This document shows positions 5,127-28,245 of a stretch of DNA of 64,000 nt, piece by piece. Source of the stretch: a virus. The notes under the pieces are model-generated. The model had not been told where the DNA came from, did not search any database, and saw only the letters and a program-made list of their open reading frames with translations. Both the position numbers and the translations under genes were made by a program. Every line of letters starts with the position of its first letter. Within the stretch, counting starts at the first letter, position 1. The DNA is taken from the IMG/VR virus record IMGVR_UViG_3300014501_000012, positions 20,832 through 84,831 of that record; one strand, written 5' to 3'.

Positions 5127-7430
5127 GTGGGTGAGTCCTTGAAGAACCGTTTCGGTCAGATCGACGAGCAGGGTCGCATCGTCGCCCTCGTCGCCGAAGG
5201 CCTCCCGGCATGGCCGGACGACGGCAACCTGTCGGAGTTCACCGACGAGCAGCTGGCCGAGGTCGAGGCGGCTCTTCTCACCGAGAGCGCCGAGATCATG
5301 GGTGCCGGCGACGATGCCGACATCGATCGGGCGGAGCAGATCGTCGAGCGCGTGGGTGCTCTTCGCACCGAAGCCGCGACCCGGATGGCCGCGGCCGACG
5401 AGCCCGAAACCAGCCCTGAGCTGGAGGAACTGGCGGCCCTGAGCGACGAGGACCGTGCGGCCGTCGTCCAGTACGCAGCCGACGTGGCCGCCATCCCACC
5501 GCCCGCCGACGAGGACGCCGCCCTCGCCCGCCGGCGCGACGCCCTCGCCCGCCTGGGCGACCTGACCCCGCCCCCGGCGCCGGAACTCCAGGGCCTGAGC
5601 CACGAGGCCGCCGCCTCCTACGCCGAGGCAACCGCCGCTGGCATGGCCCGTGGGTTTGCCCCCGTGGTCGAGGCCCTGACCACGGCCGCGACCGCCCTGG
5701 CCACGGCCAACACCCCGCCCGCCCCCGGAACGACCATCACCGCCCGCGAGCTGGGGCGCTACCGTCCCTCGCAGTTCGCTCCGGCCGCCGGGACCCCCGA
5801 GGCCCCGCGTCCCCGCGGCCATCTCGTCCACCGAGGAGATGTCGCCGGGATGGCCATGGGCGCTGAGTTCACCTCGATGCGCCAACTGGTCGACGCCTTC
5901 GTCACCCGCCACCGGACCATCGGCCAGTCGGCGGCCGAGGACGAGCAAGTCCTGATCGCCTCCTACCAGCAGGACGACCCTCCGCCCGAGCGCGACCTCC
6001 GCCACATGAGCGACAGCCGCGAGGTGCGCCAGATGATCGACCGGGTGGTGGGACCCGATGCCATGGGCCGCGACCCGTGGAACCTCAGCCGGGAGGTCCC
6101 GATCAGCCGGGGCGGCATCGCCGTGACCGACTCAGAGGCCCTGGTGGCCTCCGGGGGCCTGGCCGCGCCGGTCGAGCCGTACTACCCCCAGCTGGTCCTC
6201 GCTGTCTCGGACCGCCCGGGGCTCGGATCGATGCCCGGGTTCATCACCGAGCGCGGAGGCATCCGGCTGGTGCTCCCGCCCAACCTCAACACGCTGGCGA
6301 ACGCCGTCGCGCCGGGGACGTTCGCCGACGGCGTGGCCGCGACCTCGACTGCCTGGACCTCGGCCACCGCTGAATTCACCGACGCCGACGTTGGGCAGCC
6401 GATCATCGGCACCGACATCCCCGCCGGGACGATCATCAACTCGGTGACCAACGGCACGACCCTCGTGCTGTCGGCGGCCACCACCGCCTCGGCCACCGGC
6501 CTGACGTTCTACCTGCCCTCGCGCAACCCGACCAACCTCGGAGGCCCCGTGGGGAAGGTCACCGCGGCCCAGGACGCGGCCGGACCGCCGAACTCGGTCA
6601 AGTTCACCTACGACGTCGCGAACGGGACGCAGGTCGAGCACGACGTGTACTCGGTCTACACGTCCCTCCAGTTCGGCAACCTGACGGCGCGGACGTTCCC
6701 CGAGCAGGTCGAGGCGAACATCCGCCTCGCCAACGCCCTGGCCGCCCGCGTCGCCGAGACGGCGATGCTGGACTACATCACCGGCTGGTCGACCCTGATC
6801 ACGGCGGCCAAGACCTTCGGCACCGCCCGCCAACTGCTCGCCCAGTTCGAGCACATGGCGGCGATGTACCGGAACAACAACCGGATGGACCCCGCCGCCG
6901 TGCTGCGTTTGGGCATCCCGGCCTGGGCGCTCAACGCCATGCGTTCGGACTACATCTCGTCCTTCATCGGGGGAGCGGAGAACTGGGGACTGTCGGACGA
7001 GGAGCTGAACTCCTGGTTCGCCGACCGCAACATCCTCCCGTTCTTCTACCTGGACGGGCCGTCGGACATCTCCCAGCTCTTCCCGGTCATCGGGTCGGGC
7101 GCGATCAACACCGGGGGGACGAATACCGCCACCCCGGTCGCGCTGCCGGACTACCCGGGACAGGGAGCGACGACCTCGTTCCGGACCAAGGTCGTCTCGT
7201 TCATGTGGGCCGAGGGGACGTGGCTCGGGTTGACGACGGGCGAGCTCAACATCGGGCTCGTGCGGGACTCGATCTTGAACTCGAGTAACAGATTCCGTAA
7301 CTTCGAGGAAGTATGGGAATCGCCTGCGTTCGTCGGGCTCCAGTCCCTCCGCTGCGTTCACACCGTCGCCGCCGACGGCACCTACGGTGCGGCCGTGTCG
7401 ATCACGCTCGGTGTCGGGTCCGGCCTGTAA
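5127..7430 (+). CDS. Major capsid protein, HK97-fold type, with long N-terminal extension
   Basis: 767 residues from GTG 5127, chosen because GGAGG lies 7 bases upstream; the frame is open further back but without a ribosome site. Residues 1-235 are acidic and rich in Ala, Glu and Pro with helical stretches, like a fused scaffold (delta) domain. The rest matches actinophage capsid proteins: GGLAAP near 350, LAARVAETAML, and the C-terminal segment RDS-LN-N-FRNFEEVWE. It is about twice the usual length. A beta module of about 66 residues (398-463; FTDADVGQPIIGTDIPAGT) is inserted and recurs in other virion proteins. The protein would form capsid hexamers and pentamers after removal of the N-terminal part. 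Confidence 0.85.
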   Translation: MGESLKNRFGQIDEQGRIVALVAEGLPAWPDDGNLSEFTDEQLAEVEAALLTESAEIMGAGDDADIDRAEQIVERVGALRTEAATRMAAADEPETSPELEELAALSDEDRAAVVQYAADVAAIPPPADEDAALARRRDALARLGDLTPPPAPELQGLSHEAAASYAEATAAGMARGFAPVVEALTTAATALATANTPPAPGTTITARELGRYRPSQFAPAAGTPEAPRPRGHLVHRGDVAGMAMGAEFTSMRQLVDAFVTRHRTIGQSAAEDEQVLIASYQQDDPPPERDLRHMSDSREVRQMIDRVVGPDAMGRDPWNLSREVPISRGGIAVTDSEALVASGGLAAPVEPYYPQLVLAVSDRPGLGSMPGFITERGGIRLVLPPNLNTLANAVAPGTFADGVAATSTAWTSATAEFTDADVGQPIIGTDIPAGTIINSVTNGTTLVLSAATTASATGLTFYLPSRNPTNLGGPVGKVTAAQDAAGPPNSVKFTYDVANGTQVEHDVYSVYTSLQFGNLTARTFPEQVEANIRLANALAARVAETAMLDYITGWSTLITAAKTFGTARQLLAQFEHMAAMYRNNNRMDPAAVLRLGIPAWALNAMRSDYISSFIGGAENWGLSDEELNSWFADRNILPFFYLDGPSDISQLFPVIGSGAINTGGTNTATPVALPDYPGQGATTSFRTKVVSFMWAEGTWLGLTTGELNIGLVRDSILNSSNRFRNFEEVWESPAFVGLQSLRCVHTVAADGTYGAAVSITLGVGSGL

Positions 7431-7493
7431 GCCCTCCCCTCTCGGGGCAGAGGCCCAAGCAACCACGAGAAGACGAGGGGAGGTGATGACCAG

Positions 7494-8894
7494 ATGGCAG
7501 TCCAGGAGTTCTCAGCCGTAACAGGGCTCGACTTCACCCTGGAGACTCCGGTCCCGCTGGTCTCACCGCCCCTCTCGCTCCTTGGCGAGGCCCGGTCGCT
7601 GATCGACCTGGCGGGGATGTACGCCCGCCGGCAGGCGGCGTTGGAGAAGATCCAGTCCGGGGCCGAGCAACTCGAGGCCTACGACCGCGACGGGGTCGTG
7701 GGCGACGACGACCAGCCGGGCGAGGCAGACAGCCTCGAGGACACGGTCAAGGCGCTCGAGCAGCAGATGTCCGAGTGGACGCGTGAGTTCGAGACCTGGG
7801 ACGACGGCATCGCCCGGATGCAGGGCTGGGAGCAGGCGATCCAGTACCTCCCCGAGCTGGGCAACGCCGAGTCGATGTCGGTCTTCGCCCCGGGCACGGT
7901 CCCGCCCGTCGGCTCTGCGCTGGCATCGGGTGCGACGAAGCAGACCGGGTCCAACCAGGAGCCGTTCTACTGGTACGACCCGTTCGTCGCGGTAGGCCGC
8001 GACAGCCGGTCGCTTTTCGGGTGGCCGAACACCGACTTCGCCTCGCGGCTCCAGCGGTGCCAGCGCGCCCTCCTCGCCCACGAGTCGTGGCAGGCCGAGT
8101 ACGAGTTCTGGACGGGCACACAGGTCCCGACGAACTACCACCTCTCGGCGAGCCCGAGCACGGCCGTGGTCAGTCCCCACCGGACGATCGATGCCTGGCC
8201 GAACCCCCTCGCCCCGCCCGGGACGACGCTCGGAACCCCCGAGAGCCTGAGCGACTCGCTCGCCGCCCTCGACCAGTCGATCGCCAACGCCGACGCCGGC
8301 ACGGGGATGATCCACGCCTCGTGCTACCTCGTCCAGAAGTGGGCGCAGGTCTACCCGTACCTCCGGGACCCGTCGGGGAACATCCGGACGGTGAACAACA
8401 ACCTGATCGTCCCCGGCTACGGCTACCCCGGGACCGGGCCGGACCAGGCGAGCCGGTCGGTGACCGACGTGGTCACGACGGACGGAAGCCCCGACATCAC
8501 CTCGGCCTCGGCCGCCTTCACGGACCTCGACATCGGCCGCCCGATCAACGAGACCGACGCCGGGGGTCACATCCCGGCCGGCGCGGTGATCCTCACGGTG
8601 ACGAGCCCCACCGCCGCCGTCCTGAGCGTCCCGGCCACGGGAGCGGCCACGGGGATCGATGCGACGCTTCCGGGGGTCGGGGGCAACGCGACGGGGTCGG
8701 TCGTCCAGTGGGCCTACGCGACGGAGATGGTTTTCCACCTCCAGGGCGACATCGTCTCGTACCCGTCCGACCTCCGCGAGATCTCGCCGGCCTTGTACCA
8801 CAACTCGGCCGACATCCGCGTCGAGCGGTCCCACGCTCTGCTCACCAACCGGCTCCTCCGGGCAGCCGTCGCCGTCGACACGTCCACCACGTAA
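7494..8894 (+). CDS. Head-region structural protein
   Basis: 466 residues following the capsid gene, with GGAGG before the ATG. Residues 30-110 are helical. The region with MIHASCYLVQKWAQ, then VPGYGYPGTGP, then WAYATEMV and a C-terminal RVERSHALLTNRLLRAAVAVD, is typical of a conserved actinophage protein found beside the capsid gene, possibly a second capsid or pentamer component. The shared beta module (FTDLDIGRPI) is inserted at about 8454-8676 between the conserved halves. The exact role is not settled from sequence. Confidence 0.65.
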   Translation: MAVQEFSAVTGLDFTLETPVPLVSPPLSLLGEARSLIDLAGMYARRQAALEKIQSGAEQLEAYDRDGVVGDDDQPGEADSLEDTVKALEQQMSEWTREFETWDDGIARMQGWEQAIQYLPELGNAESMSVFAPGTVPPVGSALASGATKQTGSNQEPFYWYDPFVAVGRDSRSLFGWPNTDFASRLQRCQRALLAHESWQAEYEFWTGTQVPTNYHLSASPSTAVVSPHRTIDAWPNPLAPPGTTLGTPESLSDSLAALDQSIANADAGTGMIHASCYLVQKWAQVYPYLRDPSGNIRTVNNNLIVPGYGYPGTGPDQASRSVTDVVTTDGSPDITSASAAFTDLDIGRPINETDAGGHIPAGAVILTVTSPTAAVLSVPATGAATGIDATLPGVGGNATGSVVQWAYATEMVFHLQGDIVSYPSDLREISPALYHNSADIRVERSHALLTNRLLRAAVAVDTSTT

Positions 8895-8906
8895 GGAGAA
8901 GCAACC

Positions 8907-10067
8907 ATGGCCACAAATGGTCCAGTGCAAATCCAAGGCTGCGCATACCGGTTCGCCCGGCTCGCGGCCGACGGCTCGATCGTCAGCTCCTCGTCGGCGA
9001 TGATCCAAGACGACCGCCCGCTGGTGAAGATCGACATGAAGCCCGAGCTCGAAGAGGGCGTCGAGATCACCCCCAAGTCGGCGTGTGGCGTCCCGGTGAT
9101 CTCGTACAAGGACTGCAACCGGTACAAGCGGTGGACGATCGGCGTGACCCTCGGCGACTGGGACCCCGAGCAGTTGGAGCTCGTCGGGCAGGGCGCCGTC
9201 ATCACCGCGCCGGGATCGTCCGGGCGCGCCTTTGCCGACGGCGTGGTGACGATCAACGACGCCATCGTGACCTCCGCCGCCGACGCGGCGTTCACGGCGG
9301 ACGACGTCGGGCGCCCGATCACCGACGCCGGGTTCACCGTGGCCTCGTGCACCACGGCCAGCACCTCGGCCGACGTCACGACCACGGGGACGTTCGACAC
9401 TGACGGGGTCTCGGCGGGCATGACCGTGACCGGGACGGGGATCGCCACCGGGACCTTCGTCCTGAGCGCGAACTCCCAGACCGACCTCACGCTCAGCCAG
9501 CCGGCGACGGCCAGCGGCACGGTCACCCTGACCTTCTTCATCCTCCCCGCCGGGAACTACATCGCCGAGGTCTTCTCGGCGACCGAGGCCCGGATGAACT
9601 TCATCGCTCTCAAGACCGGGGCGGCCCTGACGCTCACCCTCGGATCGCAGGCGGTGTCCACGATCGGGTACCAGTACCCGCGGCTGCTCGCCGTCGAGTG
9701 CCCGTTCGGGATCTCGATCGAGGTCTGGTCGAAGCTGATCGTGCGCGGCACCGGCTACCAGGGCACCACGCCCTACCCCTCGGCCGGCACGGCGGAGATC
9801 CCCGGATCGGCCTACGTGCGGACCGGCATCTTCCGCGCCTTCCTCTGGCACGGAGCGCGCACGATCGAGAACAAGGAAGCCGGCCCGATGTTCGAGGGCT
9901 GGGCGATCGAGAACCCGAACTTCGGCACGGGTCCGGCCGACGACTGGCGCGTCACCGCTCTGCCGGCTGATGGCGAGCCGGTCCCGACGATCGCCTGGTG
10001 CAACGAGATGGCGGACTTCGAGCTGCCCACTCCGCTCCAGCCCGGGTACCAGACTCTTCCGATCTGA
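8907..10067 (+). CDS. Probable major tail (tube) protein
   Basis: 386 residues, AAGGAG 9 bases before ATG. The N-terminus (GCAYRFARLAADG, DRPLVKIDMKPELEEGVEI) and the C-terminal half (IEVWSKLIVRGTGYQG, then GWAIENPNFGTGPADDWR) resemble actinophage tail-tube proteins. Between them lies the shared beta module (FTADDVGRPI, 9226-9600), itself interrupted by a second module copy (SAGMTVTGTGIATGT). The location before the connector genes is unusual for a tube protein, so a head decoration role is the main alternative. Confidence 0.6.
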   Translation: MATNGPVQIQGCAYRFARLAADGSIVSSSSAMIQDDRPLVKIDMKPELEEGVEITPKSACGVPVISYKDCNRYKRWTIGVTLGDWDPEQLELVGQGAVITAPGSSGRAFADGVVTINDAIVTSAADAAFTADDVGRPITDAGFTVASCTTASTSADVTTTGTFDTDGVSAGMTVTGTGIATGTFVLSANSQTDLTLSQPATASGTVTLTFFILPAGNYIAEVFSATEARMNFIALKTGAALTLTLGSQAVSTIGYQYPRLLAVECPFGISIEVWSKLIVRGTGYQGTTPYPSAGTAEIPGSAYVRTGIFRAFLWHGARTIENKEAGPMFEGWAIENPNFGTGPADDWRVTALPADGEPVPTIAWCNEMADFELPTPLQPGYQTLPI

Positions 10068-10096: not shown

Positions 10097-11047
10097 ATGC
10101 CCGATTTCGCGAACCCACCCCTCTGGGCGTCCCAGCCGGTACCCGGACAGGTCCCGGTCTACGCCCCTGATGCTCTCGTCCCGACGAGTCCCGGGGTCTA
10201 CGGCGACGGCTCGGACGGTGTCGTCACGTTCGACGGGACCACGACCATTCTCGGGCTCGTACCGTCGAGCGAGGTCTACACGTTGACCCGCGACCTCTAT
10301 CTGGCGGGATGCACGATCAACGCCGGGGTGACGATCATCACCGCGGGGTTCCGGATCCTCTGCAACGGCCCGGTGGTTCACAACGGCGCGATCGAGTGGA
10401 ACGGGAACGCCGGGGCGCTCGGCACGGGATCTGCTGGAACCGCGGGAGCGGCTCTCACCGCTGCGATCGTCGGCGGTGCGACCGCGGGTGGCGCGGGCTC
10501 AGCGACCAACGGTGCCAACGGCGCTGCGGGGCCCGCCAGTTCGTTCGGTGGCAACGGTGGGTCGGCCGGCATCGGCAGCGGTGGCACGGCCGGGGTCCAC
10601 GCCTCGGTGACTGCCATGACCGCGGCGCACGGCTCGATTCGCTCGCTCCCCAACGCCCTGCTTGCGGTCGGCCAGGCCGGGGGAACGATCTCCCAGGCGA
10701 CTGGCGGCGCTGGTGGCGGTGGAGGCGGCGGTGACGCCACGAACTTCGGAGGGGGCGGAGGTGGTGGCGGCGGTGTCGTCGTCCTGATCGCTCTGAGCAT
10801 CTCGGGGACCGGGACGATCTCGGCGAACGGGGGCAAGGGCGGAGGCGGCGCGACGGCCGGGAACTGTGGAGGCGGCGGTGGAGGAGGCGGCGGCCTCGTG
10901 GTCGTGGTCTCGGGAACCGTCTCGGGCGCGACCGTCGACGGGCTGACCGTCACCGCGACCGGTGGTGCCGGCGGGGCGCTCTCGGGCACGGGCTCGGCAG
11001 CCGGTTCGGCCGGGGCAGCCGGCACGGTTCTCCTCCTCGCCGCGTAA
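10097..11047 (+). CDS. Glycine-rich fibre-like protein
   Basis: 316 residues, AGGAGG 5 bases before the ATG. Residues 1-95 look beta-stranded. Residues 95-300 contain runs of 7 to 9 glycines separated by short hydrophobic strands such as VVVLIALSISG and LVVVVSG. Such runs are known from phage adhesins that pack polyglycine-II helices (the gp38 adhesin of Salmonella phage S16). A receptor-binding or capsid-fibre role is inferred. Confidence 0.7.
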   Translation: MPDFANPPLWASQPVPGQVPVYAPDALVPTSPGVYGDGSDGVVTFDGTTTILGLVPSSEVYTLTRDLYLAGCTINAGVTIITAGFRILCNGPVVHNGAIEWNGNAGALGTGSAGTAGAALTAAIVGGATAGGAGSATNGANGAAGPASSFGGNGGSAGIGSGGTAGVHASVTAMTAAHGSIRSLPNALLAVGQAGGTISQATGGAGGGGGGGDATNFGGGGGGGGGVVVLIALSISGTGTISANGGKGGGGATAGNCGGGGGGGGGLVVVVSGTVSGATVDGLTVTATGGAGGALSGTGSAAGSAGAAGTVLLLAA

Positions 11048-15729: not shown

Positions 15730-16079
15730 CGAGTTGGGCCCAAACGAACTGGGCGTGGATCGATTCGCTGCTCTTGGAGAAGGGGCTCAACCCGTTCGAG
15801 GTCCCCTGGCCGAGGCTGGCGAACTTCATCTTCACCCAGTGGGTCGGGAGTATCTGGGACGACGAGGAGCGAGCGGACGTGATCAAGTCACTCAGTTGGC
15901 CGGAGGACGAGATGCAGGGAGCGCAGGGGCAGGACCGGTCGGTCCGGGCCGGCGCGCAGGCGCTCGGGCTGAACCCCGACCAGATGGTGGCCAACGCGTG
16001 GGAGCAGCGCCAGCTCGCGCTCCAGCGCAAGGCGGCGACTGAGGGCATGGCGGCGCGGGCCGAGGAGCCGACCGGGTGA
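15678..16079 (+). CDS. Tail assembly chaperone extension, likely made by -1 frameshift
   Basis: The frame is -1 relative to the preceding gene and has no good start or ribosome site of its own. It encodes a Trp-rich segment (SWAQTNWAWIDSLLLEKG, PWPRLANFIFTQW) and a Gln-rich helix, like C-terminal extensions of siphophage chaperones. The overlap contains GGGAAGGGG at 15709-15717 as a possible slip region, although it is not a canonical heptamer. Its stop overlaps the GTG of the tape measure gene. The start coordinate is only the edge of the open frame. Confidence 0.65.
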   Translation: MDRGGHHGRPWEGVQLLTSWAQTNWAWIDSLLLEKGLNPFEVPWPRLANFIFTQWVGSIWDDEERADVIKSLSWPEDEMQGAQGQDRSVRAGAQALGLNPDQMVANAWEQRQLALQRKAATEGMAARAEEPTG

Positions 16080-19000
16080 CGATCGTCGGCGAGGGGATCA
16101 TCTGGCTCAGGCCGTCGACGGCGGGCTTCGCCGAGGAGGCCGAGGGCAAGCTCAAGTCCTCGCTCGCGTTCTTGGGCGGCGGGAGTTCGGTCGTGGGCGG
16201 GATCGTGGCCGGGACCCTCGCGGCCGGCGCGGCCGTCACCATCGTCACGGCGAAGATGGCGATGGACTTCCAGAGCGCCGAGGCCAAGCTCTCGGGAACC
16301 GCGGACATCTCAGCGAAGGCCGCGGCCAAGATCGGGACGGCCTTCCTCAACACGATGGGGTCCTCGGCGTTCTCCGGCGAGACCCTTCTCAAGGCGTACA
16401 CCCCGGTCTCGGCCCAACTCGCCCGGGTCGAAGGCCGGACCCTCTCGGCCACGCAGGCGACCCGGTTCATGGCGGTCGCGTCGGATCTGGCGAAGGCCTC
16501 GGGTAAGGATCTCAACACCTCGACCTCGACCCTCGCCCAGACCTTGTTCACGTTCGGCATACGGACGAAGGACGCCGCGGGCGCGGCGAACCTCCTCTTC
16601 AACGCCGCCCGGATCACGAACACCCCGATCGACTCCCTCTCGAACATCATCGACAAGCTCCACGCGAAACTCGGGACCCTCGCGCCGACCTTGAAGGACA
16701 CGGCCTCGATCATCGCCCTCCCCTCGGTCGCCGCGCTCGGGAGCCGCGGGGCGATGCAGGTCAGTTCCGCCCTCGAGCACCTCCTGACCCAGGCGTCGGC
16801 GACCTCGTCGGGGATCACGAAGGCCGTGACCGCGGCCCAGGCGAAACTCACGACGGCGAGCGCCGACGTCGCCAAGGCCCAGCTCAAACAGCAGCAGGCC
16901 CAGGAGGAGGTCACCGCGTCGGGGACGAACACCCTCGCCCAGCAGATCAAAATGTCAAACGCCCAGGACGCGGTCACCGCGGCGGTCGGGAAGCAGACCC
17001 TCGCGCAGCAGGCCCTCACCGCGGCGCAAGGGGACAACGTCGCGGGATCGACCCAGGCCAAGGCGCTCCTCGACCAACTCGGCCTGTCGTCCCTCTACGT
17101 CCACGGGAAGTTCGTCGGGCTCCGCGAGGTCATCGCGACCTTGGGCCCACGGCTCGCGGCGATGACCGAGCAGAATCGGAACCTCGCCCTGCAAACCCTC
17201 TTTGGGACCGGCGCCGCTCAGGTCATGGGGCACGTGCTCGCGGGTGGCGTGACCGCTTTCGACAAGTCCACGGCGGCGGTGTCCCGACACAACGCGCTCG
17301 CCCACGCGGCGGCGGCGATCGCCAAGACCCTCTTCGGACAGCTCGACGTGCTCCGGGCGTCCGTCGAGGACGTCGCGGTCAAGCTCGGACAGATGCTCCT
17401 CCCGTACATCCAGAAGTTCGTCCACCTTCTGACCGAGGGCTTCGGGTGGGCGTTGAAACACAAGGAGGTGATGATCGCTCTGGCCGGGGTTCTTGCCGGC
17501 ATCGTTGTCGGCTCACTCATGGCCGTCGCAGCGGCGTTGCTCGCGGTCGACGTCGCCGGGCTTCCGATCTGGTTGATCGCCGCCGCGATCGCCGCGCTGG
17601 CCGTGGGCGTGTTCGAGGCCTACAAGCACATCCCGGCTTTCCGGGACGAGGTCCACAAGCTCGGCGACGACATCAAACGGATCAACTGGAAGGACGTCGA
17701 ACGGGACGTGAAGTCCTTCGCCAAGGTCGTGGGCAAGGATCTGACCGAGGCCTTCCGCGACGCCTCGGCGTGGCTGAAAGAGGGGATGAAGATCTTCGAC
17801 GCGCTCCCGGGTCCGCTCAAGGACATCGTCTCGCCGATCCTCGGGATCGTCGTCGCCGTGAAATTCGTTGCCCAGCACTGGAAGGCGGCCTTCACCGATA
17901 TTGACCACGCGACACGGGACTTCGTCGGCGGTCTCGAGGCCGCGTGGCGGGACTTCCTCGACCCGATCGTCCAATGGGTCGTGGATTTTTGGCACTCGCT
18001 CGTGAACTTCTGGCACACCTACGGCGGGGAGATCACCCGGATCACCCGCGGGCTGTTCGGCCTGATCGAATCCGTCGTCCGGACCTTCATCCACGTGACG
18101 ACCGACATCTCGAAGGCCCTGTTCGACCTGCTCATCCCGATCTTCCGCGCCGGGTGGGCACTCGTCAAGGGCGTCTTCCAGGCGGCCTGGGACTTGATCG
18201 TGGGCGTGGTCAAGGTCGCGTGGCGGACGGTCGAGGGCGTCATGGAGGTGGCGAAGGACGTCGTGCTCGGGATCTTCGAGATCTTCGTCTCGCTCCTGAC
18301 CGGGCACTGGTCGAAGGCCTGGAAGGCGCTCGTCCATATGGTGGTCTCGGTCAAGAGCGACATCGTCAACGCAGCCAAGGGCGTCCTCGAGGCCGTGCTC
18401 AACGCCGTCGGCCGGGCCGCCCTCGATCTCTACAAGGGGGCGTTCGCTGCGGGGAAGGATCTGGTGATGGGATTGTGGAAGGGGATCAAGGAGGCCGCGC
18501 ATCTGGCGACCGACGCCGTGAAGTCCGTCGGCCACGGGATCCTCTCGGCGGCCAAGTCCGTGCTCGGGATCTTCTCGCCCTCGATCCACTTTCAGGAGTA
18601 CGGGAAGGGAACCATGCAGGGCCTGGCCAAGGGGATCCGGGACAACGCGAACCTCCCCCAGGCCGAGCTCAACAAGCTCAACCTCCACATCGCACCGAAG
18701 GACAAGCAGAAGGCGGTCGACTGGTTCAAGGACGTCGCCAAACTCGCCAAGCAGAACCACGAAAGCGCCGGATCAGCGGCCGGTCAGCTCGCCCACCTCT
18801 TCGGCGCCGGCCCGTCGGGGTCTGACGCGGCGAAGAAGGCTGCGACCCAGCTCAAGCAACTCACCGAGGCGATCACACTCCGCAAGTACCTCCAAGCGAT
18901 GGCCCACCAGAACCACCAGGATGTGACGGCCGGGAACAAGACAAGCCGCGACGGGTCGAGCCAGGTCGGCAAGCACGTCGACATGGCATCACTCCACGCG

Positions 19001-19174
19001 ATGACCAACCACCGTCAACTCCTCGACGAGCAGAAAACTCAGACGGCGATCCTCCGCCAGTTGAAGATCGACGGGGAGAAGCCGAAGAAGATCACGATCA
19101 AGGGGATGCCCGGAACGACCACGGGGGCCGGTAGCAACGCGGTCGGGGCGATCGCTTCGGGGACGATCCGATGA
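16076..19174 (+). CDS. Tail tape measure protein
   Basis: 1032 residues from GTG. It sets tail length and crosses the host envelope at injection. Early residues show the TMP pattern with a membrane-like GGIVAGTLAAGAAVTIV stretch. A coiled coil rich in Ala and Gln spans about 240-330, and hydrophobic segments near 465-520 (ALAGVLAGIVVGSLMAVAAALL) follow. The C-terminal half repeats FHS-LVNFW-like and AWKALV-like helices. Expected tail length is about 150 nm if the usual 0.15 nm per residue applies. Confidence 0.92.
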   Translation: MTIVGEGIIWLRPSTAGFAEEAEGKLKSSLAFLGGGSSVVGGIVAGTLAAGAAVTIVTAKMAMDFQSAEAKLSGTADISAKAAAKIGTAFLNTMGSSAFSGETLLKAYTPVSAQLARVEGRTLSATQATRFMAVASDLAKASGKDLNTSTSTLAQTLFTFGIRTKDAAGAANLLFNAARITNTPIDSLSNIIDKLHAKLGTLAPTLKDTASIIALPSVAALGSRGAMQVSSALEHLLTQASATSSGITKAVTAAQAKLTTASADVAKAQLKQQQAQEEVTASGTNTLAQQIKMSNAQDAVTAAVGKQTLAQQALTAAQGDNVAGSTQAKALLDQLGLSSLYVHGKFVGLREVIATLGPRLAAMTEQNRNLALQTLFGTGAAQVMGHVLAGGVTAFDKSTAAVSRHNALAHAAAAIAKTLFGQLDVLRASVEDVAVKLGQMLLPYIQKFVHLLTEGFGWALKHKEVMIALAGVLAGIVVGSLMAVAAALLAVDVAGLPIWLIAAAIAALAVGVFEAYKHIPAFRDEVHKLGDDIKRINWKDVERDVKSFAKVVGKDLTEAFRDASAWLKEGMKIFDALPGPLKDIVSPILGIVVAVKFVAQHWKAAFTDIDHATRDFVGGLEAAWRDFLDPIVQWVVDFWHSLVNFWHTYGGEITRITRGLFGLIESVVRTFIHVTTDISKALFDLLIPIFRAGWALVKGVFQAAWDLIVGVVKVAWRTVEGVMEVAKDVVLGIFEIFVSLLTGHWSKAWKALVHMVVSVKSDIVNAAKGVLEAVLNAVGRAALDLYKGAFAAGKDLVMGLWKGIKEAAHLATDAVKSVGHGILSAAKSVLGIFSPSIHFQEYGKGTMQGLAKGIRDNANLPQAELNKLNLHIAPKDKQKAVDWFKDVAKLAKQNHESAGSAAGQLAHLFGAGPSGSDAAKKAATQLKQLTEAITLRKYLQAMAHQNHQDVTAGNKTSRDGSSQVGKHVDMASLHAMTNHRQLLDEQKTQTAILRQLKIDGEKPKKITIKGMPGTTTGAGSNAVGAIASGTIR

Positions 19175-20292
19175 ACAGCGCCGGCTACCCGACCTATCTG
19201 GTCAACGGCGCGGTCTCGGTCAACAGCGGGGTCGCCGACGAGAACGGGTCGTTCTGGTACCTCGACGGGGAGATCGCCGGGTGGGACTCGCCGGACATGC
19301 GCCAGACGATGCTCACGCGGATCGGCAACACGCCCTCGGCCGACGGGGAGATCGCGGCGGACAACCACTACCGCGGCCGATCGCTGGTCTTCACCCTCAT
19401 CGCCGAGTGCGCGTCCGAGGCCGCCCGGGAAGCGTCTCGCCTCCTCCTGGCCGGCGCGCTGGACCTGATCAGCACCACCGGGACGTTCCTGGCCGAGGAG
19501 GTGATCCCCAAACAGGTCTCGATCATCCGCTCGGGGAACTCGAACCAGGGCAAGCTTGTGATGACCGACTGTGGCTTCGCCATGAAGAACGCCACCGAGG
19601 CCCTGTCGCGCACCGTCACCGATGCCGTGACCACGGGCAGTTCGGAGAACCTGGTCAGCGCGTCGGCGAACTTCGGGACGGGTGACATCGGGCAACCGGT
19701 GACGGGGACGAACATCCCGCCCGGCACCGTGGTCGTCTCGATCACGTCCACGATCGAGGTCGTGATGTCGAACGAGGCCACCGCGTCAGGGAGCGACCAG
19801 ACGGTGACGATCGGCGGGTACCCGGGCTTCCCCGTCGGGACCGTCGTGTGGCTGCTCAAGGCCGAGATCGAGATCTACGCGCAGGACCCCCGGAAATACT
19901 CGCCCGTCCCCAACGAGGCACCGTTCGAGTCGAACGTGGCGATGGTGACGAACGAGGGGAACACCGCCACCCAGAACGCGGTGATCACGATCGAGGTGAC
20001 CGGAGGCGGGGACGGTCCGTTCCACATCGAGATCGTCAGCGTCGCCGACATGGAGTTGCTCGTCCCCCCGCTCCCGGCCGGCGCGCCCGCCCTCGATCCG
20101 ATCCCGACCGAACTCGTGGTCGACCTCTACAACAAGACCATCACCGACGGGGAGGAACGCAGCTACTACTACCTGCGGAACCTCCAGACCCCGTGGCTCA
20201 CGATTCCCCCGGGGGTCTGGGCGGTCTCGATCAGCGGGGCGGGCGGCAGCAACATCCCCGGGAGCGTCGTCAGTTACTCGGCGTGGATCTGA
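19171..20292 (+). CDS. Distal tail (Dit-like) or minor tail protein
   Basis: 373 residues. ATG overlaps the tape measure stop (ATGA). The first gene after the tape measure is normally the distal tail protein. The N-terminal half has the phage pattern LVNGAVSVNSG, WYLDGEIAGWDSP. It carries the shared beta module (VTDAVTTG, then FGTGDIGQPVTGTNIPPGT, 19609-19818). It would form the hub joining tube and baseplate. Confidence 0.65.
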   Translation: MNSAGYPTYLVNGAVSVNSGVADENGSFWYLDGEIAGWDSPDMRQTMLTRIGNTPSADGEIAADNHYRGRSLVFTLIAECASEAAREASRLLLAGALDLISTTGTFLAEEVIPKQVSIIRSGNSNQGKLVMTDCGFAMKNATEALSRTVTDAVTTGSSENLVSASANFGTGDIGQPVTGTNIPPGTVVVSITSTIEVVMSNEATASGSDQTVTIGGYPGFPVGTVVWLLKAEIEIYAQDPRKYSPVPNEAPFESNVAMVTNEGNTATQNAVITIEVTGGGDGPFHIEIVSVADMELLVPPLPAGAPALDPIPTELVVDLYNKTITDGEERSYYYLRNLQTPWLTIPPGVWAVSISGAGGSNIPGSVVSYSAWI

Positions 20293-20295: not shown

Positions 20296-21744
20296 GTGGC
20301 CCGCGTCCGCGTCAACAACCAGTTCGGGTTTCTCGGGGCTGACCCCGGTATCAGCGGAACCACGCTGACCTTCGGCGCGGCCCCCGTTCCCCCGTTGCCC
20401 ACCCTCACTGGCGAGGACTACATACCGTTCACCCTTGACGCTCTGTCTGACCGGTTCGAGATCGTTCACCTGGTCGCGCCCTACACGTCGGGAGATCTGA
20501 CCGGGCCGATGGTGCGGGAGGCCGAGGATGCCGTCAACTTCCCCGCGGTCGCCCACAACCTGCCGGCGACGTGGAAGGCGTGCCCCACGGCCCTCGACTA
20601 CAGCGCCACGATCTTCAACGTCCTCTACTACGGGGCCGATCCGACTGGGGTGAACGACAGCACTGCGGCGTTCCAGGCGGCGATCAACGACGCCACGGCC
20701 AACGCTGGGTCAGACGCGCTCGGTCCGGTCTACGTGCCAGCCGGCAAGTACAAGATCAGCGGCACGCTCACGGTGGAGAACGTGATCGGGTTCCGCATCT
20801 ACGGGGACGGTAAGTGGCTGACGTTCATTCAACCCACCACGGCGCTCGCGGGTCTGGCCGTGTTCAGGCTCCAGGACTGTGACTCCCCGGCGTTCGAGGA
20901 GATGAACGTCGCCGGGAACTCGAGCGGCGCACCGCTTTACCTGCTCCAGTTCAACGTTGGCAACCCGATCCTGCTGGTCAACACCCGGGCCTTCGTCAAG
21001 AGCGTGTTCTTCGGATCCTCGAGCGCCGGGAGTGCGACGAACGGGATCGCGTGGACGACATCGGGACCGGACGACAACAACGATCAGTCGGTGGTTCTCG
21101 ACTGCGACTTCTACAACATGACGAACGCCTACTACATCGGGCACTCGAACTCCGAGCAACACACGTTCATCGGCGGCACCACGAATGTGACGGGGGCGAC
21201 CGTCCTCTGCGCCGGGGGTGGGTACAAGATGATCAGCACGGTCATCATTAACACCTCGGGGACGATGTTCGAGTTCGGGGCCGGGACCTACCGGCGCGGG
21301 ACGGAGATCATCGGGGTCAGCTCAGAACAGTCCGGCGCCTGGGTGAACGCCGTCACGGGGGCGATCGGACTCAACCTGCGGATGGTCGGGTGCGTGTGTG
21401 ACGGAGCACCGGCCAGCTCGACGCCAATCAACTTCGAGGCGGACATCACGTCCCACTTCCGGGCGACCAACTGCGATTTCGTCAGCGGGCAGACGGGAAC
21501 GATCCTCAACTTTCCCACAGCGGCTCTGTCGTCGTTCACTGACTGCACCCTGGACTGCTACTCGATCACCTTCGACTCGGCGCTGAACCTAATCGGCAAC
21601 CTGTTCCTCGCCGGAAACGTGACGATGACCAACGGCGGTTCGGGGGTCTATCTGGGATTCGCCAACACCGGGGGCAACGTGCCGGACAGCGACCTGAGCG
21701 CAGATGATCTCATCGCTCCCTTCCTCAACCAAAACTACTTCTAA
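20296..21744 (+). CDS. Tailspike-like beta-helix protein (pectate-lyase-3 type)
   Basis: 482 residues from GTG. Residues from about 105 contain NVLYYGADPTGVNDSTAAFQAAIN, the standard entry of pectate-lyase-3 beta-helices, followed by YVPAGKYKISGTLTV, then regular short strands to the end. Such proteins bind or cleave host polysaccharide. The N-terminal 100 residues are probably the virion attachment domain. Catalytic residues cannot be picked out. Confidence 0.8.
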   Translation: MARVRVNNQFGFLGADPGISGTTLTFGAAPVPPLPTLTGEDYIPFTLDALSDRFEIVHLVAPYTSGDLTGPMVREAEDAVNFPAVAHNLPATWKACPTALDYSATIFNVLYYGADPTGVNDSTAAFQAAINDATANAGSDALGPVYVPAGKYKISGTLTVENVIGFRIYGDGKWLTFIQPTTALAGLAVFRLQDCDSPAFEEMNVAGNSSGAPLYLLQFNVGNPILLVNTRAFVKSVFFGSSSAGSATNGIAWTTSGPDDNNDQSVVLDCDFYNMTNAYYIGHSNSEQHTFIGGTTNVTGATVLCAGGGYKMISTVIINTSGTMFEFGAGTYRRGTEIIGVSSEQSGAWVNAVTGAIGLNLRMVGCVCDGAPASSTPINFEADITSHFRATNCDFVSGQTGTILNFPTAALSSFTDCTLDCYSITFDSALNLIGNLFLAGNVTMTNGGSGVYLGFANTGGNVPDSDLSADDLIAPFLNQNYF

Positions 21745-22170: not shown

Positions 22171-22694
22171 TGAGCGACGGGATGGCTGGGAACGTGGGTG
22201 ACGGGTTCTCCATCGAGCCACCGTTCCCCAACACCGAGCCCGTGTACCAGGGCGTTCTAACGCTCGACCCAACGTCCGAGACCTTCCTCCGCTGGTCGCC
22301 GTTCCTCGCGCTGCCCCCACAGTTCCAAACGTTGACAGCCAACGGGGCGGTCACGATCGACGCGGCGATGGGGGACGTCATCGTCAACCTCGAGGCGAAC
22401 GCCACGAGCACTACCATCGTCAACTCGCTCTACAACGAGGACCAGTATCCAGGGTACTCACCGCGGCCGGGTCAACTCCTGAGGGTCACCTTCGTGCAAG
22501 ATGCCACGGGTGGCCGCACCTACGCGTGGCCCTCCAACTGCGCCTTCGGCGCGGGCGTGACCACGACGTCGCCGATCGTGACCGTCGCGGCGGGAGCACC
22601 CACCGACACGGTGGCCCTCTCTCAGACCTCGGTCCTGTTTCGTTGGGACGGGACCACGTGGCAGGAGATGTCCAGAGCGGTGAGCGTCGGGTAG
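22170..22694 (+). CDS. Hypothetical tail fibre component
   Basis: 174 residues, start overlapping the previous stop. The segment QTLTANGAVTIDAAMG, then GQLLRVTFVQDATGGRTYAWP and VLFRWDGTTWQEM, is a beta-sandwich module common in phage fibres, and the tail fibre at the window start carries a related segment (about 720-1010). Confidence 0.7.
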   Translation: MSDGMAGNVGDGFSIEPPFPNTEPVYQGVLTLDPTSETFLRWSPFLALPPQFQTLTANGAVTIDAAMGDVIVNLEANATSTTIVNSLYNEDQYPGYSPRPGQLLRVTFVQDATGGRTYAWPSNCAFGAGVTTTSPIVTVAAGAPTDTVALSQTSVLFRWDGTTWQEMSRAVSVG

Positions 22695-24868
22695 TGCCCT
22701 TCGGTACCGATCCCCACGGGGACGCTCCCTATGGCGACTCGTCCTCGGAGGGGGCGGTCTTCCCGAGCATCGTCACCGACGACGCGCTGACGACCGACTC
22801 GTGCGGGGGTGGAGTGGTGCTGGCGCGCCCGACCACCGACACGGCCCTGACTACCGACACTCTGTTCGATCACGCCGTCTCGGTGAGCGACACGGCCCTG
22901 ACCACGGACGCGGTCGGGGTGGGGAAACACTTCGCACGGCTCTCCCCGGACGTCTCGTACACGACCGACGGGCTCCTCGGTCCGATCGTCTTCGTCTCGG
23001 TCCGCTGCCTGACCCGCGTCGTGGTCTCGGTCGCTTGCTACCGTCCACTCCCGCCGCCCCAGCCCGTCCCCGGGCCGAGCGGTCTGCACGACTATGAGGT
23101 GATCACCTGCGACCAGTTCGGGGTCGCCTACGGAGAGATCGTCACGGCCGTCCCGACTCAGATCGACTGGGACCTTGACGACCTCGGATCGGTCCTGATC
23201 GACATCGACATCCTCGACCCGAGCCTCTTGAACCTCCTCCCGCAGTCGGCGATCCCGGCCGTGCGTGAGATCCAGATCTGGCGCGACCAGTCGTTGATCT
23301 TCTGGGGCCTCCCGATCTCGGCCACCTACGACGCGTCACAGGTCCACCTCACGTGCTCGGGCCATCTCTGGTTCCTCTCCACGAGGAACTTCGGCCCGGT
23401 GATCACCGAGTACCTGACCAACCCCCAGTTCGAGCAGGGCTTCCTCGATTGGGTCCCGGTCGGGGTCACGAGTTCGATCGAGGACGCCCGGGCCGGCGGG
23501 ATCGTGGCCCTCGGTCGGTACGCTGCGCGGCTCACCCAGTCCAGCGCCAACGAGGACACGTACATCCACCAGATCCTCACCGGGATCTCCGCGCCGCCAG
23601 AGGAGTCGACCTTCTTCGACCTCGCCGCCTGGCTCTACATTGACCCCGCCTACGCGTCCCCCGGACCGGCGCTCGACCAGCGCGGGCTCTTCATCCAGTC
23701 GGTCATCGGATCGACCGTCCAGGACTTCGAGTTCGAGACGATCACGGCCTCGACCGTCATCGGTCAGTGGGTGCGTTTGGAGACGGGGATCCTCGTCGAG
23801 GCCGGGACGACGGTGGACCTCGACATCCGGCTCTACGCGCCGGGGGGTTCGGTCATCTGGGACGCCGTACAACTCACGGTCGAGGAGTCGGTCGGGTCGA
23901 CGCTCGCGGGCTCCGATGTCTATTTCATCATCCTCGAGATCCTCCAGTACGCCCAGGACCCGACACGCGGGAAGTCCAACGTGAACCTCCCCGTGATCGG
24001 AGCGAACACAGGGGTCGTCCTCCAGCGCAACTACCAGTTCTCGGACAACGGCGGGATCCTCGACGCGCTCAACGAGTTCCCCACGATCGGCGCGTGCGAC
24101 TTCGAGGTGACCTACGACGAGACCGGTCACTTCCGCGGGTTCCAGGTGTTCTCCCCGGCGAAGGGCTCGGTCAAGTACAACGCGGCGATCGAGATGGACC
24201 TGGGCCAGGTCACCGACCTCCAGGGCGCGGTCGACGGCTCGCAGGTGGGGACGGCCGTCCGATACCTCGGCCAGGGCTCGACCGGTTCGTCGGCCGAGAT
24301 CGGGTTCGCCAACTTCCCCTGCTATCTGGGTGGGCGTGTCTCGGGCGTCGCCGTCCTCGTCCAGGGATCGACCACGGCCCAGGCGGGCGACATCGACTTC
24401 ACCGCCCTCGACGTAGGACAGGGGATCTACTGCCAGACCCCGGGGGTGATCCCCGTCGGGACGGTCATCGTCGAGGTCCTGAGCGCGACCGAGGCCGTGA
24501 TGTCGAACCCATCGGCGATCACGGCCAACCCCTCGGTGATCGGTATCGGCGGGATCATCATCGACTCCGTGCAATCGGCGATGCCCGACCAGATGATCGA
24601 CACCCTCCAGGCCTCGGCCGAGCAGATGTTGGCCCTGACCCAACGCCCGCAGAACCTCCCGACGCCGAAGATGCGCGCCGACGGGCCGGCGGGACTCTTC
24701 GGGAAAGTCGAGACCGGTGACGTCCTCCCGGTGATGTTCAACTACGGCTGGTGTACCTTCGGCCCGGTCTACATGCGCCTCGTGACCCTGACCCTCTACC
24801 CACCGACCGAAGAGTTGGAGTTCACCTTGAACCTTCCGGGGACGCTCTCGACCGTGGGGGGTGGCTGA
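22694..24868 (+). CDS. Baseplate (tail-associated) protein with ALTTD repeats and carbohydrate-binding-like domain
   Basis: 724 residues from GTG 22694 (overlaps TAG). Residues 27-92 hold four copies of the (S/T)DxALTTD repeat seen at 3956-4651. Residues 130-280 resemble siphophage minor tail proteins (DWDLDDLGSVLIDIDILDP, VREIQIWRDQSLIFWG). Residues 285-420 have a carbohydrate-binding jelly-roll look (NPQFEQGFLDW, ARLTQSS). Near 555-620 is the shared beta module. The C-terminus QRPQNLPTPKMRADG is typical of the hub. Likely part of the tail tip. Confidence 0.75.
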   Translation: MPFGTDPHGDAPYGDSSSEGAVFPSIVTDDALTTDSCGGGVVLARPTTDTALTTDTLFDHAVSVSDTALTTDAVGVGKHFARLSPDVSYTTDGLLGPIVFVSVRCLTRVVVSVACYRPLPPPQPVPGPSGLHDYEVITCDQFGVAYGEIVTAVPTQIDWDLDDLGSVLIDIDILDPSLLNLLPQSAIPAVREIQIWRDQSLIFWGLPISATYDASQVHLTCSGHLWFLSTRNFGPVITEYLTNPQFEQGFLDWVPVGVTSSIEDARAGGIVALGRYAARLTQSSANEDTYIHQILTGISAPPEESTFFDLAAWLYIDPAYASPGPALDQRGLFIQSVIGSTVQDFEFETITASTVIGQWVRLETGILVEAGTTVDLDIRLYAPGGSVIWDAVQLTVEESVGSTLAGSDVYFIILEILQYAQDPTRGKSNVNLPVIGANTGVVLQRNYQFSDNGGILDALNEFPTIGACDFEVTYDETGHFRGFQVFSPAKGSVKYNAAIEMDLGQVTDLQGAVDGSQVGTAVRYLGQGSTGSSAEIGFANFPCYLGGRVSGVAVLVQGSTTAQAGDIDFTALDVGQGIYCQTPGVIPVGTVIVEVLSATEAVMSNPSAITANPSVIGIGGIIIDSVQSAMPDQMIDTLQASAEQMLALTQRPQNLPTPKMRADGPAGLFGKVETGDVLPVMFNYGWCTFGPVYMRLVTLTLYPPTEELEFTLNLPGTLSTVGGG

Positions 24869-25446
24869 TGGCGAACGACACCGGCCCGCTCGGTGGGTCA
24901 GGACCCGTCACCCGGCCGAACCTCGGCCTCGCCGCCATCCGGGCGCGGTTCGAGAACATCGAGCGCCGGCTGTCCCTCCGAGAGAGGAACCGAACACCCG
25001 AACCCCTCCCGCTGCACCTGGCCGCGTCGAACGCTGGCCCGGTGAGCCAGGCCCAGCACGGCCACGGCGTGGTCTACTCCGAGCCCCAGGGGATGTTCGT
25101 CCCGAGCCCGGTGCTGGCCGAACTCCCGTTCCACATGCCCGGGCCTCTTAGTCTCGCCACCTCCCCGCCGCTGCACGCCCGCTACGCCTGCTCGATCACG
25201 GGCATCGCCGCGGACCTCGGGGTGTTCTCGACCGACGTCGAGTTCGAGGTGCTGGTGAACGGGACGATGGTCTACACGATCAACCAGACGTCCCAGAGCA
25301 CGGGACTGATCCCGGTCGCGCCCACCGCGCTCGTCGCCTACACCGACCTCATCACCGTCCAGACGACGTCGATCGGCACGGGGAACTCGGATCTTGTGGT
25401 CCACGTCGAGCTCGGGGTCGTGGTCGGGACGACGCCCGGCCCGTGA
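24868..25446 (+). CDS. Minor tail protein, collar or fibre type
   Basis: 192 residues, start overlapping the previous stop. An N-terminal helix (LAAIRARFENIERRLSLRERN) precedes a beta domain (EFEVLVNGTMVYTINQTSQS, VVHVELGVVVG). This helix plus beta-sandwich plan is common among small baseplate proteins. No enzymatic motif. Confidence 0.65.
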   Translation: MANDTGPLGGSGPVTRPNLGLAAIRARFENIERRLSLRERNRTPEPLPLHLAASNAGPVSQAQHGHGVVYSEPQGMFVPSPVLAELPFHMPGPLSLATSPPLHARYACSITGIAADLGVFSTDVEFEVLVNGTMVYTINQTSQSTGLIPVAPTALVAYTDLITVQTTSIGTGNSDLVVHVELGVVVGTTPGP

Positions 25447-25449
25447 CAC

Positions 25450-26517
25450 GTGGGTAACTTCACCGTCTACACGACGTCCGACCTCAACACCTGGACGCAG
25501 CAGACCACCCCGGCCGACAGCGCGTCCTTCCCGCAGGCGCTGTGCATCTCCGAGGGCGCCGGTCTTTTCGTCGTCGGCGGCCGTGGGTTCGGGGCCGTCA
25601 CGGGCCCCCCGATCATGTATTCGTCAGACGGGGTCACGTGGAACTTCCCTAGCGGAAGCGGGTTCACCTCGACCGACCTGGTGGAGGCCATCGCCTGGAA
25701 CGGGAGCTTGTTCGTCGCGGTGGGGAACTTCGGCCCGAGTGGGTACACGGCGGCCACCTCCCCGGATGGGATCACCTGGACGATCCAGCCGGTGGGAACG
25801 TCGGGCAGCACCTGGTCCTGGCTTGCCTGGTGCGCGGGCCCGGACATCTTCATGGCCTGGGCGACTGATCCGGGTAACGCGTTCACCTCCCCCGATGGCG
25901 TCACCTGGACGGCGGTGCCAGGAGCCCCTACGTACATGAACGGTGGATTCACCTGGGACGGGTCTGGTCTCGGGGTGTGGGGGAACTCTTACAGGGGAGG
26001 AGGTGCCGCCGGCACCACGGACACCACGACCTTCGCCGTCATCGGTGGGCTGGCTCTCAACCTATACACGGAGGCGGTCGGTTGGATCGGCGGCCAGTGG
26101 GTACTCACGGGGCCAAACTTCGACGGCCCCACTCTCCCTTCCGTGCAGATATCTCCTGACACGCTCACGTGGACAGCGGTAGCGACGCCCATGGACGGGA
26201 ACCAGTTCCCCCGGAACGCAGTAGTCGACGGGGATGGCCTCGCGGTGATCCTGGCCACGGGAGCCAACTTCGGCGACATCACCTGCATGAGCAGTTCGGA
26301 CGATGGCGCTAGCTGGTCGTCCCACTACTCCCCCTTCGACTATCCGGGGTCAGGCGGGAGCAACAGCTGCAGGGATGCCCTCTGGACGGGGACCGAGTGG
26401 ATCGTGGTCGGGTTCGTCCGATCCCCGGCCCCTCCGCCGGTCATCCCCTGGCACGTGGGCCAGGTCGGCTTCGGAGCGAACACCGGGACCGACTGGCTGG
26501 TGGGGGTCAACCCCTGA
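25450..26517 (+). CDS. Asp-box (BNR-like) beta-propeller tail protein
   Basis: 355 residues from GTG. At least five blades carry the Asp-box pattern S-x-D-G-x-T-W or close variants (SSDGVTWNF, SPDGITWTI, SPDGVTWTA, SPDTLTWTA, SSDDGASWSS), spaced 45-65 residues. The propeller fold is known from sialidases, but the catalytic arginine triad is not obvious, so a glycan-binding role is more likely than hydrolysis. It lies among fibre genes. Confidence 0.75.
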   Translation: MGNFTVYTTSDLNTWTQQTTPADSASFPQALCISEGAGLFVVGGRGFGAVTGPPIMYSSDGVTWNFPSGSGFTSTDLVEAIAWNGSLFVAVGNFGPSGYTAATSPDGITWTIQPVGTSGSTWSWLAWCAGPDIFMAWATDPGNAFTSPDGVTWTAVPGAPTYMNGGFTWDGSGLGVWGNSYRGGGAAGTTDTTTFAVIGGLALNLYTEAVGWIGGQWVLTGPNFDGPTLPSVQISPDTLTWTAVATPMDGNQFPRNAVVDGDGLAVILATGANFGDITCMSSSDDGASWSSHYSPFDYPGSGGSNSCRDALWTGTEWIVVGFVRSPAPPPVIPWHVGQVGFGANTGTDWLVGVNP

Positions 26518-26534
26518 TCCTCAGTGCCAGGTCT

Positions 26535-26981
26535 ATGCTCAGCGCCGTGACCCCCAAGAACTCCGCGGAGGGCGACGGCGAACAAGGCCTCGTATCGGCT
26601 CCCCTCGACGAGCCTGACGCGGACGGGGGCACGGAGGAGGATGCCGCGGAGGGCGCGGACCCCGCGGCTCAGCCCACATCAGATCCCCCGGTCGATGACG
26701 GGCTTCAGGCCGAAGAGGCTCCCGATGCCGTCGAGGAGCCGGCGGAATCCGCGCCCGCGGTGTCCTCCGAGCCCGACGAGGGATCGATCCAGGTCCCGCT
26801 CAACGCTGACGGCGTGGGGTCGGTGCGCGTCCCGGTCAACTGCATGGAGATCCTCGACGTCCGCGGCGACGGGATGCGGACCTGCACCTGGAACTCCGTC
26901 CCCCGCCACCCCGAGCTGACCCGCGTCACGCTCGCGGGCGAACCCTTCGCTACGATCTCGATCACCGTCCTCACCCGATAA
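26535..26981 (+). CDS. Hypothetical acidic protein with beta C-terminal domain
   Basis: 148 residues; ATG 26535 chosen, GTG 26547 is an alternative. Residues 1-80 are very acidic and rich in Ala, Glu, Asp and Pro and look unstructured. The C-terminal part (VRVPVNCMEILDVRGDGMRTCTW) is a compact beta domain. No family recognised. Confidence 0.6.
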   Translation: MLSAVTPKNSAEGDGEQGLVSAPLDEPDADGGTEEDAAEGADPAAQPTSDPPVDDGLQAEEAPDAVEEPAESAPAVSSEPDEGSIQVPLNADGVGSVRVPVNCMEILDVRGDGMRTCTWNSVPRHPELTRVTLAGEPFATISITVLTR

Positions 26982-26992
26982 GGAGAACCCGA

Positions 26993-27712
26993 ATGTCCGA
27001 CACGACAGGAACACCCCCAGCAGGTTCGCAGCCCCTCGCCGGCCCACCGGGCTCCGACCCGACCGAAGCCCTGACCGGAGCGGGCAAGCCCGCCGAGGGC
27101 GCGCCGGAAACGATGGCGGCCGGCCAGCCTCCAGCGGGCGACGGGGTCGAGTCCCTGACGGGATCCGGAGCCCCGGCCGAAGGCGACGGACTGGCGGACG
27201 AGCCGGCGGATCCGGCCGAGGTCGAGGCGCTTGAGGTCGACATCCAGACCGACGCCGAGGGGACCGGGTGGGAGATCATCGACGAGCCCCTCGCCGGCCT
27301 CGTGGCGACCCTCCCCGCCGGGGAGCAGGGGTCGGTGGCTCTCACCGCCCCCGAGGGCGACCCCGAAGGCAAGGAGTCGGCGTGCGTGACGGTGACCGGG
27401 GCCGCGCCGAACTCGGTCGTGATCGTCACCGTGACCGAGGGCGAGACGCCCCCGGCCCTCCCGCCCCAACCCGAGCCCGTCCCTGCAGGCGGAGTCCACA
27501 CGATCCAGGACAACGTCACCGACCCGGAGAACCCGCGCACGGTCCAGGCCGAGGGCATCACCGTCCAGGACAACGTCTCGTGGGCCGACGAGGAGAAGGA
27601 AGAGGACCGGGTCCTGACCGAGCGCACCGTCCAGGCCGACGGGACCACGAGCGACCACCGACCCCTTCCGCCCGTCGACGCCGACGAGGAGCCCGCCGCC
27701 GAGGACGAGTGA
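26993..27712 (+). CDS. Hypothetical acidic low-complexity protein
   Basis: 239 residues, AAGGAG before the ATG. Gly, Pro, Ala, Glu-rich N-terminus, a central beta segment (GWEIIDEPLAGLVATLPAGEQGSVAL, about 90-150), and near the C-terminus two copies of a TIQDNV / TVQDNV motif about 28 residues apart. No known domain. Possibly a virion linker protein. Confidence 0.65.
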   Translation: MSDTTGTPPAGSQPLAGPPGSDPTEALTGAGKPAEGAPETMAAGQPPAGDGVESLTGSGAPAEGDGLADEPADPAEVEALEVDIQTDAEGTGWEIIDEPLAGLVATLPAGEQGSVALTAPEGDPEGKESACVTVTGAAPNSVVIVTVTEGETPPALPPQPEPVPAGGVHTIQDNVTDPENPRTVQAEGITVQDNVSWADEEKEEDRVLTERTVQADGTTSDHRPLPPVDADEEPAAEDE

Positions 27713-28245
27713 GCACCACCATCGTCGTCCTGGGGCTCTGGACCCCACCGGGCGGCGCGGTCCCTCCCGACGGAGAGATCACCTTCCAGCTCGACCAGGA
27801 CCTGATCGACCTCGCGACGGGCGAGACGATCTTCGCCCAGACCATCCCGTCACCCCTCGTCCTCGGGGCCATCGCCCAACCCCTGGTGGCGAACGACGCC
27901 GGGGTGAGCCCGACGAACAGCCAGTACCGGGTCGACGAGAACCTCCTGGGCGCGCCGGAGCAGAGCTACTACGCCACCGTCCCGGCGGTTCCCCCGGGCT
28001 CGCGGTCGATCACCGACGGGGCGATGACGGTCGGGTCACAGATCCTCGAGTCGGCCACGGCCAACTTCACCAGCGCCGACGTGGGGGCCTTCCTCTTCGC
28101 CCCGTTCCTGCCGATCGCGGTGACAGTCCAGTCGGTGATCGACTCCGCCCACGCCTCGCTCACGAGCGCCCCGAGTGAGAATCTTTCGAGCCTGCCGGTC
28201 CTGATCGGGGCCTCGGTCCTGCTGTCGGCTATCCGGCCGACGTAG
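27709..28245 (+). CDS. Minor tail protein carrying the shared beta module
   Basis: 178 residues from GTG overlapping the previous stop. Residues 1-95 form a beta domain (GEITFQLDQDLIDLATGETIFA, SQYRVDENLLGAPEQSYYATVP) resembling phage fibre N-terminal domains. Residues 98-170 are the shared module in a divergent form (SITDGAMTVG, ATANFTSADVG). It is the last late gene; its stop is 3 bases from the end of a gene on the other strand. Confidence 0.7.
   Translation: MSTTIVVLGLWTPPGGAVPPDGEITFQLDQDLIDLATGETIFAQTIPSPLVLGAIAQPLVANDAGVSPTNSQYRVDENLLGAPEQSYYATVPAVPPGSRSITDGAMTVGSQILESATANFTSADVGAFLFAPFLPIAVTVQSVIDSAHASLTSAPSENLSSLPVLIGASVLLSAIRPT

Follow-up and report, generated by a model that had tools for sequence, protein, structure and literature searches.

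The window analysed here is a stretch of DNA of 64,000 nucleotides from the IMG/VR virus record IMGVR_UViG_3300014501_000012. It contains seven copies of a self-contained module of ~65-75 residues, distributed over six late genes: the capsid, the head protein, the tail tube (with two copies), the distal tail, the baseplate and the last late gene (Table 1). No free-standing form was found in the window, where every copy is part of a larger protein. Homologues of the capsid protein are annotated as major capsid proteins in Arthrobacter phage Atuin, DSL-LC01 and Gordonia GMA2. For the baseplate gene the GTG at 22691, which overlaps the preceding stop, is the more likely start, and for the last late gene the GTG at 27709.

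Table 1. Late genes of the window that carry the module, and positions of the module copies
Feature	Position	Strand	Evidence
Major capsid protein (phrog_777), module carrier	4992..7430	+	phrog_777 E 1.9e-42
Module copy 1, in major capsid protein, N-terminal to predicted spine helix	6318..6516	+	HMM E 4e-20
Head protein (phrog_779), gene next after capsid	7494..8894	+	phrog_779 E 7e-10
Module copy 2, in head protein	8454..8676	+	HMM E 2e-17
Tail-tube protein	8907..10067	+	homologue of DSL-LC01 annotated major tail protein E 2.7e-9; phrog_792 weak
Module copy 3 (outer), N-terminal half	9225..9332	+	profile positions 1-36
Module copy 4 (inner), inside copy 3	~9333..9542	+	E 5e-16
Module copy 3 (outer), C-terminal half	9543..9656	+	profile positions 37-74
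Distal-tail-like protein	19171..20292	+	weak phrog_33 Dit and phrog_5577 minor tail matches; directly after tape measure (16076-19174)
Module copy 5, in distal-tail-like protein	19609..19818	+	HMM E 1.5e-18; AlphaFold2-modelled copy (19606-19833)
Baseplate / tail hub-like minor tail protein	22691..24868	+	phrog_1885 minor tail E 5e-4
Module copy 6, in baseplate protein	24355..24555	+	HMM E 4.7e-12
Last late gene: ~95-residue N-terminal part plus module	27709..28245	+	homologues of 180-200 aa with module in G005, G004
Module copy 7, most divergent, C-terminal in last late gene	28003..28212	+	HMM E 4.2e-10

Some other features of these late genes can be mentioned here. A second repeat of ~20 residues ([SA]D[ST]ALTTD[AS]V...), unrelated to the module, occurs seven times in the ORF at 3956-4651 and three times in the N-terminal part of the baseplate protein. 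The ORF just after the tail tube (10097-11047) codes for a late protein rich in glycine, which includes long stretches of poly-glycine. Farther along are a tail-spike-like protein (20296-21744) with an N-terminal beta-helix region of the pectate-lyase type, and a late protein (25450-26517) with repeated SSDGVTWT-like motifs and only a weak family match, which probably forms a beta-propeller fibre or a sialidase-like domain. The head gene of the phrog_779 family is kept in related phages. Its product was considered as a paralogue of the capsid (a penton), an idea that we have discarded, as profile comparison finds no detectable homology to the major capsid protein.

All six segments that carry the module translate in frame within their genes, and when the complete 84.8-kb record was searched with the sequence of a single copy, these six places and no others were recovered. 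In a leave-one-out analysis, each copy was sought among the 623 window ORFs with a profile made from the remaining window copies only. Every held-out copy was recovered (capsid, E 4.4e-15; head, 3.3e-15; tube, 2.2e-8; distal tail, 4.2e-15; baseplate, 5.5e-9; last gene, 1.7e-6), and no further ORF of the 623 matched at E<10. The biased composition of these T/S/A/G-rich beta segments could in principle create a false similarity by chance, an explanation refuted by these E values (1.7e-6 to 3.3e-15) without a single off-target match and by the scores of the real copies (17.6-50.1 bits) against those of residue-shuffled versions (at most 6.6 bits in 200 shuffles per protein). The clean insertion boundaries and the confidently predicted fold also speak against it. 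The homology of the six segments, as one module, is confirmed at the sequence level. The initial annotation had proposed one module in at least six virion proteins, and a profile does link the copies as it expected; its six places were also correct, save for tube and baseplate coordinates that were off by 1-2 bases.

The greater length of the tail-tube segment (9225-9656) is due to the presence of two modules inside it. The initial annotation had rightly placed the module here, but what it took for a single long copy is an outer module interrupted by a complete inner one. The outer module breaks off after DVGRPITDAG and restarts at LPAGNYIAEV, and the inner one runs uninterrupted from FTVASC to TLTFFI. 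The same nesting was found only in L007/L090. A single uninterrupted module is present in the tubes of the relatives L091, L092, L094 and L096, and the tubes of L098, L099, L105, L106, L109, Atuin and DSL-LC01 have none. This series of none, one and nested modules among the relatives indicates a history that went from no module to one module and then to a module inside a module, and the inner tube copy is, from the sequences compared, derived within the clade.

An AlphaFold2 model of the module, built from 58 module copies with the distal-tail copy as the one modelled, is confident (pLDDT 93.4) and compact. It has six strands, and the first (2-9) and last (62-69) belong to the longest of them. 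When the profile of the module copies from the clade of the window was compared with the PDB, a single entry, 8eci, was retrieved (E 2.4e-7, residues 11-71). Foldseek with the model gave the same entry first (E 3.2e-4, probability 1.00, TM 0.78 of the query, 74 aligned columns), as the sole PDB match below 1e-3. The title of 8eci is 'Decoration protein', and by tblastn its sequence corresponds to gp7 of Arthrobacter phage Bridgette and of the relatives of this phage, which some records annotate as 'capsid decoration protein'. The structure paper of Podgorski (2023) is the likely source of this entry. Among the predicted viral proteins of BFVD, a 756-residue protein of Arthrobacter phage Jinkies was on top (TM 0.88), followed by a pectin-lyase-like protein of Bcep22, tail collar proteins, cyanophage virion proteins and one HK97 capsid protein. 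Neither Pfam nor NCBIfam provided a fitting model for the module (the six proteins, and 58 module copies against Pfam), and PHROGs contains it, unrecognised, within a few virion families. Membership of the Ig, Big or Fn3 families and of the carbohydrate-binding modules (CBMs) was rejected, as the six proteins and the 58 copies gave no Pfam match of any of these kinds; among the 50 Foldseek PDB matches listed, none was described as an Ig-like domain.

Sequence and model taken together, the module belongs to the family of the Bridgette decoration domain, here put to a different use. Both are homologous in sequence and fold, and the Bridgette protein is also a virion surface protein, but it is a separate protein of 126 residues found only on the capsid, whereas the domain of the window is covalently inserted in six virion proteins and once in itself. 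The idea of a surface decoration, already put forward in the initial annotation, is supported by this homology to a capsid decoration protein. The glycan binding that it had also suggested finds no such support, as no carbohydrate-binding family matches and the module is poor in aromatic and charged residues. The beta-rich fold that it had described was found as well, in the form of a compact six-stranded domain, but with the Bridgette decoration protein as nearest solved relative and not an Ig-type sandwich.

Capsids, head proteins and tubes of relatives that lack the module have clean empty sites in its place. Capsids without it, continuous across the insertion site, were found in L098-L109, Atuin, DSL-LC01, GMA2 and Pumpernickel, and the head protein has an empty site in L098, L099, L105, L106 and L109. 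A tree of the capsid core, from which the module columns were left out, separates carriers from non-carriers with a support of 1.000. The distal-tail, baseplate and last-gene copies recur at the same places in relatives, as illustrated by the distal-tail homologue of L092 and the baseplate homologues of G004 (53% identity) and G002 (45%), and all sampled members of the clade keep the module at the same positions. Mean identity was 48.7% for the same position across phages; for different positions it was 33.4% within one genome and 33.5% across genomes. Copies cluster therefore by host protein and not by genome, which indicates that they were dispersed before the radiation of the clade and that their sites have been kept since. 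Apart from the derived inner tube copy, recent duplication or gene conversion can be discarded, since copies of the same genome are no more alike than those of different genomes. The initial annotation, which had considered the module old, spread and kept, and not the product of recent duplication, agrees well with these values (means of 33% between positions against 49% within a position).

The modules are also less conserved than the cores of the proteins that carry them (52 vs 73% in the capsid, 42 vs 53% in the head protein and 51 vs 60% in the tube), a faster divergence that would be expected of exposed, weakly constrained surfaces. The structure prediction of the capsid was of low confidence (pLDDT 53); this model has a long helix downstream of the insert, which is probably the spine helix. 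The capsid alignment, searched against the sequences of the PDB, gave no homologue. With a weak model and no PDB homologue, the placement on the HK97 fold follows from the order along the chain, and the E-loop region is the likely insertion site.

Outside the clade the module is widespread. When IMG/VR was scanned with a single module sequence close to the consensus, at least 600 pattern matches were obtained, of which at least 75 loci were confirmed. A second major capsid family (phrog_10), represented by L015 and L040, carries it, as do a tail sheath (L028:5623-7485, an internal insertion at residues 132-193), a head decoration protein of the lambda-D type (L079), a central fibre J with two copies (L026), minor tail proteins (phrog_290) and fibres. 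The stand-alone Bridgette decoration protein was present in the scan too (L038). The spread is thus promiscuous, extending among the matches listed to major capsid proteins of both phrog_777 and phrog_10, sheath, tube, decoration and minor tail proteins, J and fibres. At least five copies are found in one protein annotated as 'hydrolase' (L088:7479-9932) of a spring-water phage record (MW202566), and at least six matching loci are located in bacterial genomes. A tblastn search of isolated phages with the consensus module gave no match, probably due to the low-complexity filter, which would mask the module.

What could such a domain do for the phage? Its insertion into loops, the capsid-surface relative, the lower conservation and the self-insertion together point to an autonomous, outward-pointing domain with neighbouring termini. 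The first and last strands would lie side by side, and a module of this kind could be fitted into a loop, which may even belong to another copy, leaving the host fold undisturbed. The copies are probably exposed on the virion surface, given that they are loop insertions missing from relatives, that they diverge faster and that 8eci is their relative. We favour, with a probability of about 0.55, the reading that the module is an outward-facing plug-in domain on most structural proteins, serving for weak multivalent contacts, either with the host cell or with environmental surfaces. Most structural proteins would have received a Bridgette-type domain in exposed loops, and hundreds of copies over head and tail would provide these contacts. 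By analogy, the preferred function is an avidity coat like that of the mycobacteriophage Douge, in which Ig-like domains project from capsid and tube, the purified domains bind mycobacterial glycans and changes in the host-cell glycans alter adsorption (PMC13033339). The composition of the module (W+Y 1.1%, charged residues 6%, T/S/A/G/V 68%) fits this less well: so few aromatics speak weakly against a classical glycan site, and the scarcity of aromatic and charged residues, unlike typical carbohydrate-binding sites, argues against this reading.

The main alternative is a built-in cement, that is, a decoration protein internalised in capsid and tube that clamps neighbouring subunits and stabilises the particle. 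The solved relative, matched in both sequence and fold, is itself a cement-type capsid protein that bridges P-hexons next to or around the penton (PMC13033339); the position of the capsid copy in the predicted E-loop region would suit such a role, as would the copy within the lambda-D-like protein of L079. Nevertheless, sheath, tube, distal tail, J, fibres and a small late protein have no common interface, and the divergence of the module outpaces that of the host cores, as would not be expected of a conserved clamp between subunits, making this explanation unlikely, if a serious one. The bland composition and the low conservation beyond the fold would also suit a tolerated, mostly neutral spacer that spreads as an autonomous, harmless insert, with no specific binding or cement role. 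We regard this as rather improbable, as the same positions are kept in all sampled clade members despite ~33% identity between copies, and nesting has added a module rather than any being lost.

Ig-like domains are the textbook example of promiscuous accessory domains of phages. Those of tailed phages were reportedly described by Fraser et al. in 2006 and 2007. The module resembles them, including those in the major capsid protein and tube of Douge (PMC13033339), in being a promiscuous, outward-facing accessory beta domain, present in unrelated phages and with the same proposed role. It differs from them in family (no Pfam Ig, Big or Fn3 match, and 8eci as nearest structure) and in being mostly an internal insertion and not an appended domain. 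A second comparable system is that of the 936 lactococcal phages, which carry CBMs on the evolved Dit, TpeX, the neck passage protein and the major tail protein (PMC6669499). Here the likeness lies in having accessory domains on several virion proteins of one phage, Dit and major tail protein included, but those CBMs are of the BppA type and their host binding has been tested, whereas the module has no CBM match and few aromatics and extends to the capsid. Domains common to otherwise unrelated phage proteins, as in the present case, were surveyed by Smug et al. 2023 (PMC10684548), who found such mosaicism chiefly in replication, receptor-binding and baseplate proteins and endolysins; the passages compared mention neither the module nor its spread, within a single virion, over capsid, head, tube and baseplate. 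No description of the module as a mobile virion domain was found in the open-access literature searched.

Promiscuous accessory virion domains are thus known as a habit, and the module, by the sequence and model tests run, is outside the Ig-like and CBM families. Through it, a decoration protein that stands free on the capsid is connected with the inserts of capsid, tube, sheath and baseplate, and the natural set of carrier, module-less and nested orthologues makes the function of the domain directly testable. The chances seem to us evenly balanced that it represents an unrecognised, global class of plug-in domains of virions, which would be a second 'Ig-like' system from another family. Such a class would comprise free decoration proteins, inserts acquired by capsids on at least two occasions, sheath and tube inserts and nesting, and would let phages shift a given surface patch between capsid and tail. 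That an unrelated domain absent from Pfam and NCBIfam has the habit of the Ig-like domains suggests that convergent coating of virions by cheap plug-in domains is commoner than annotated.
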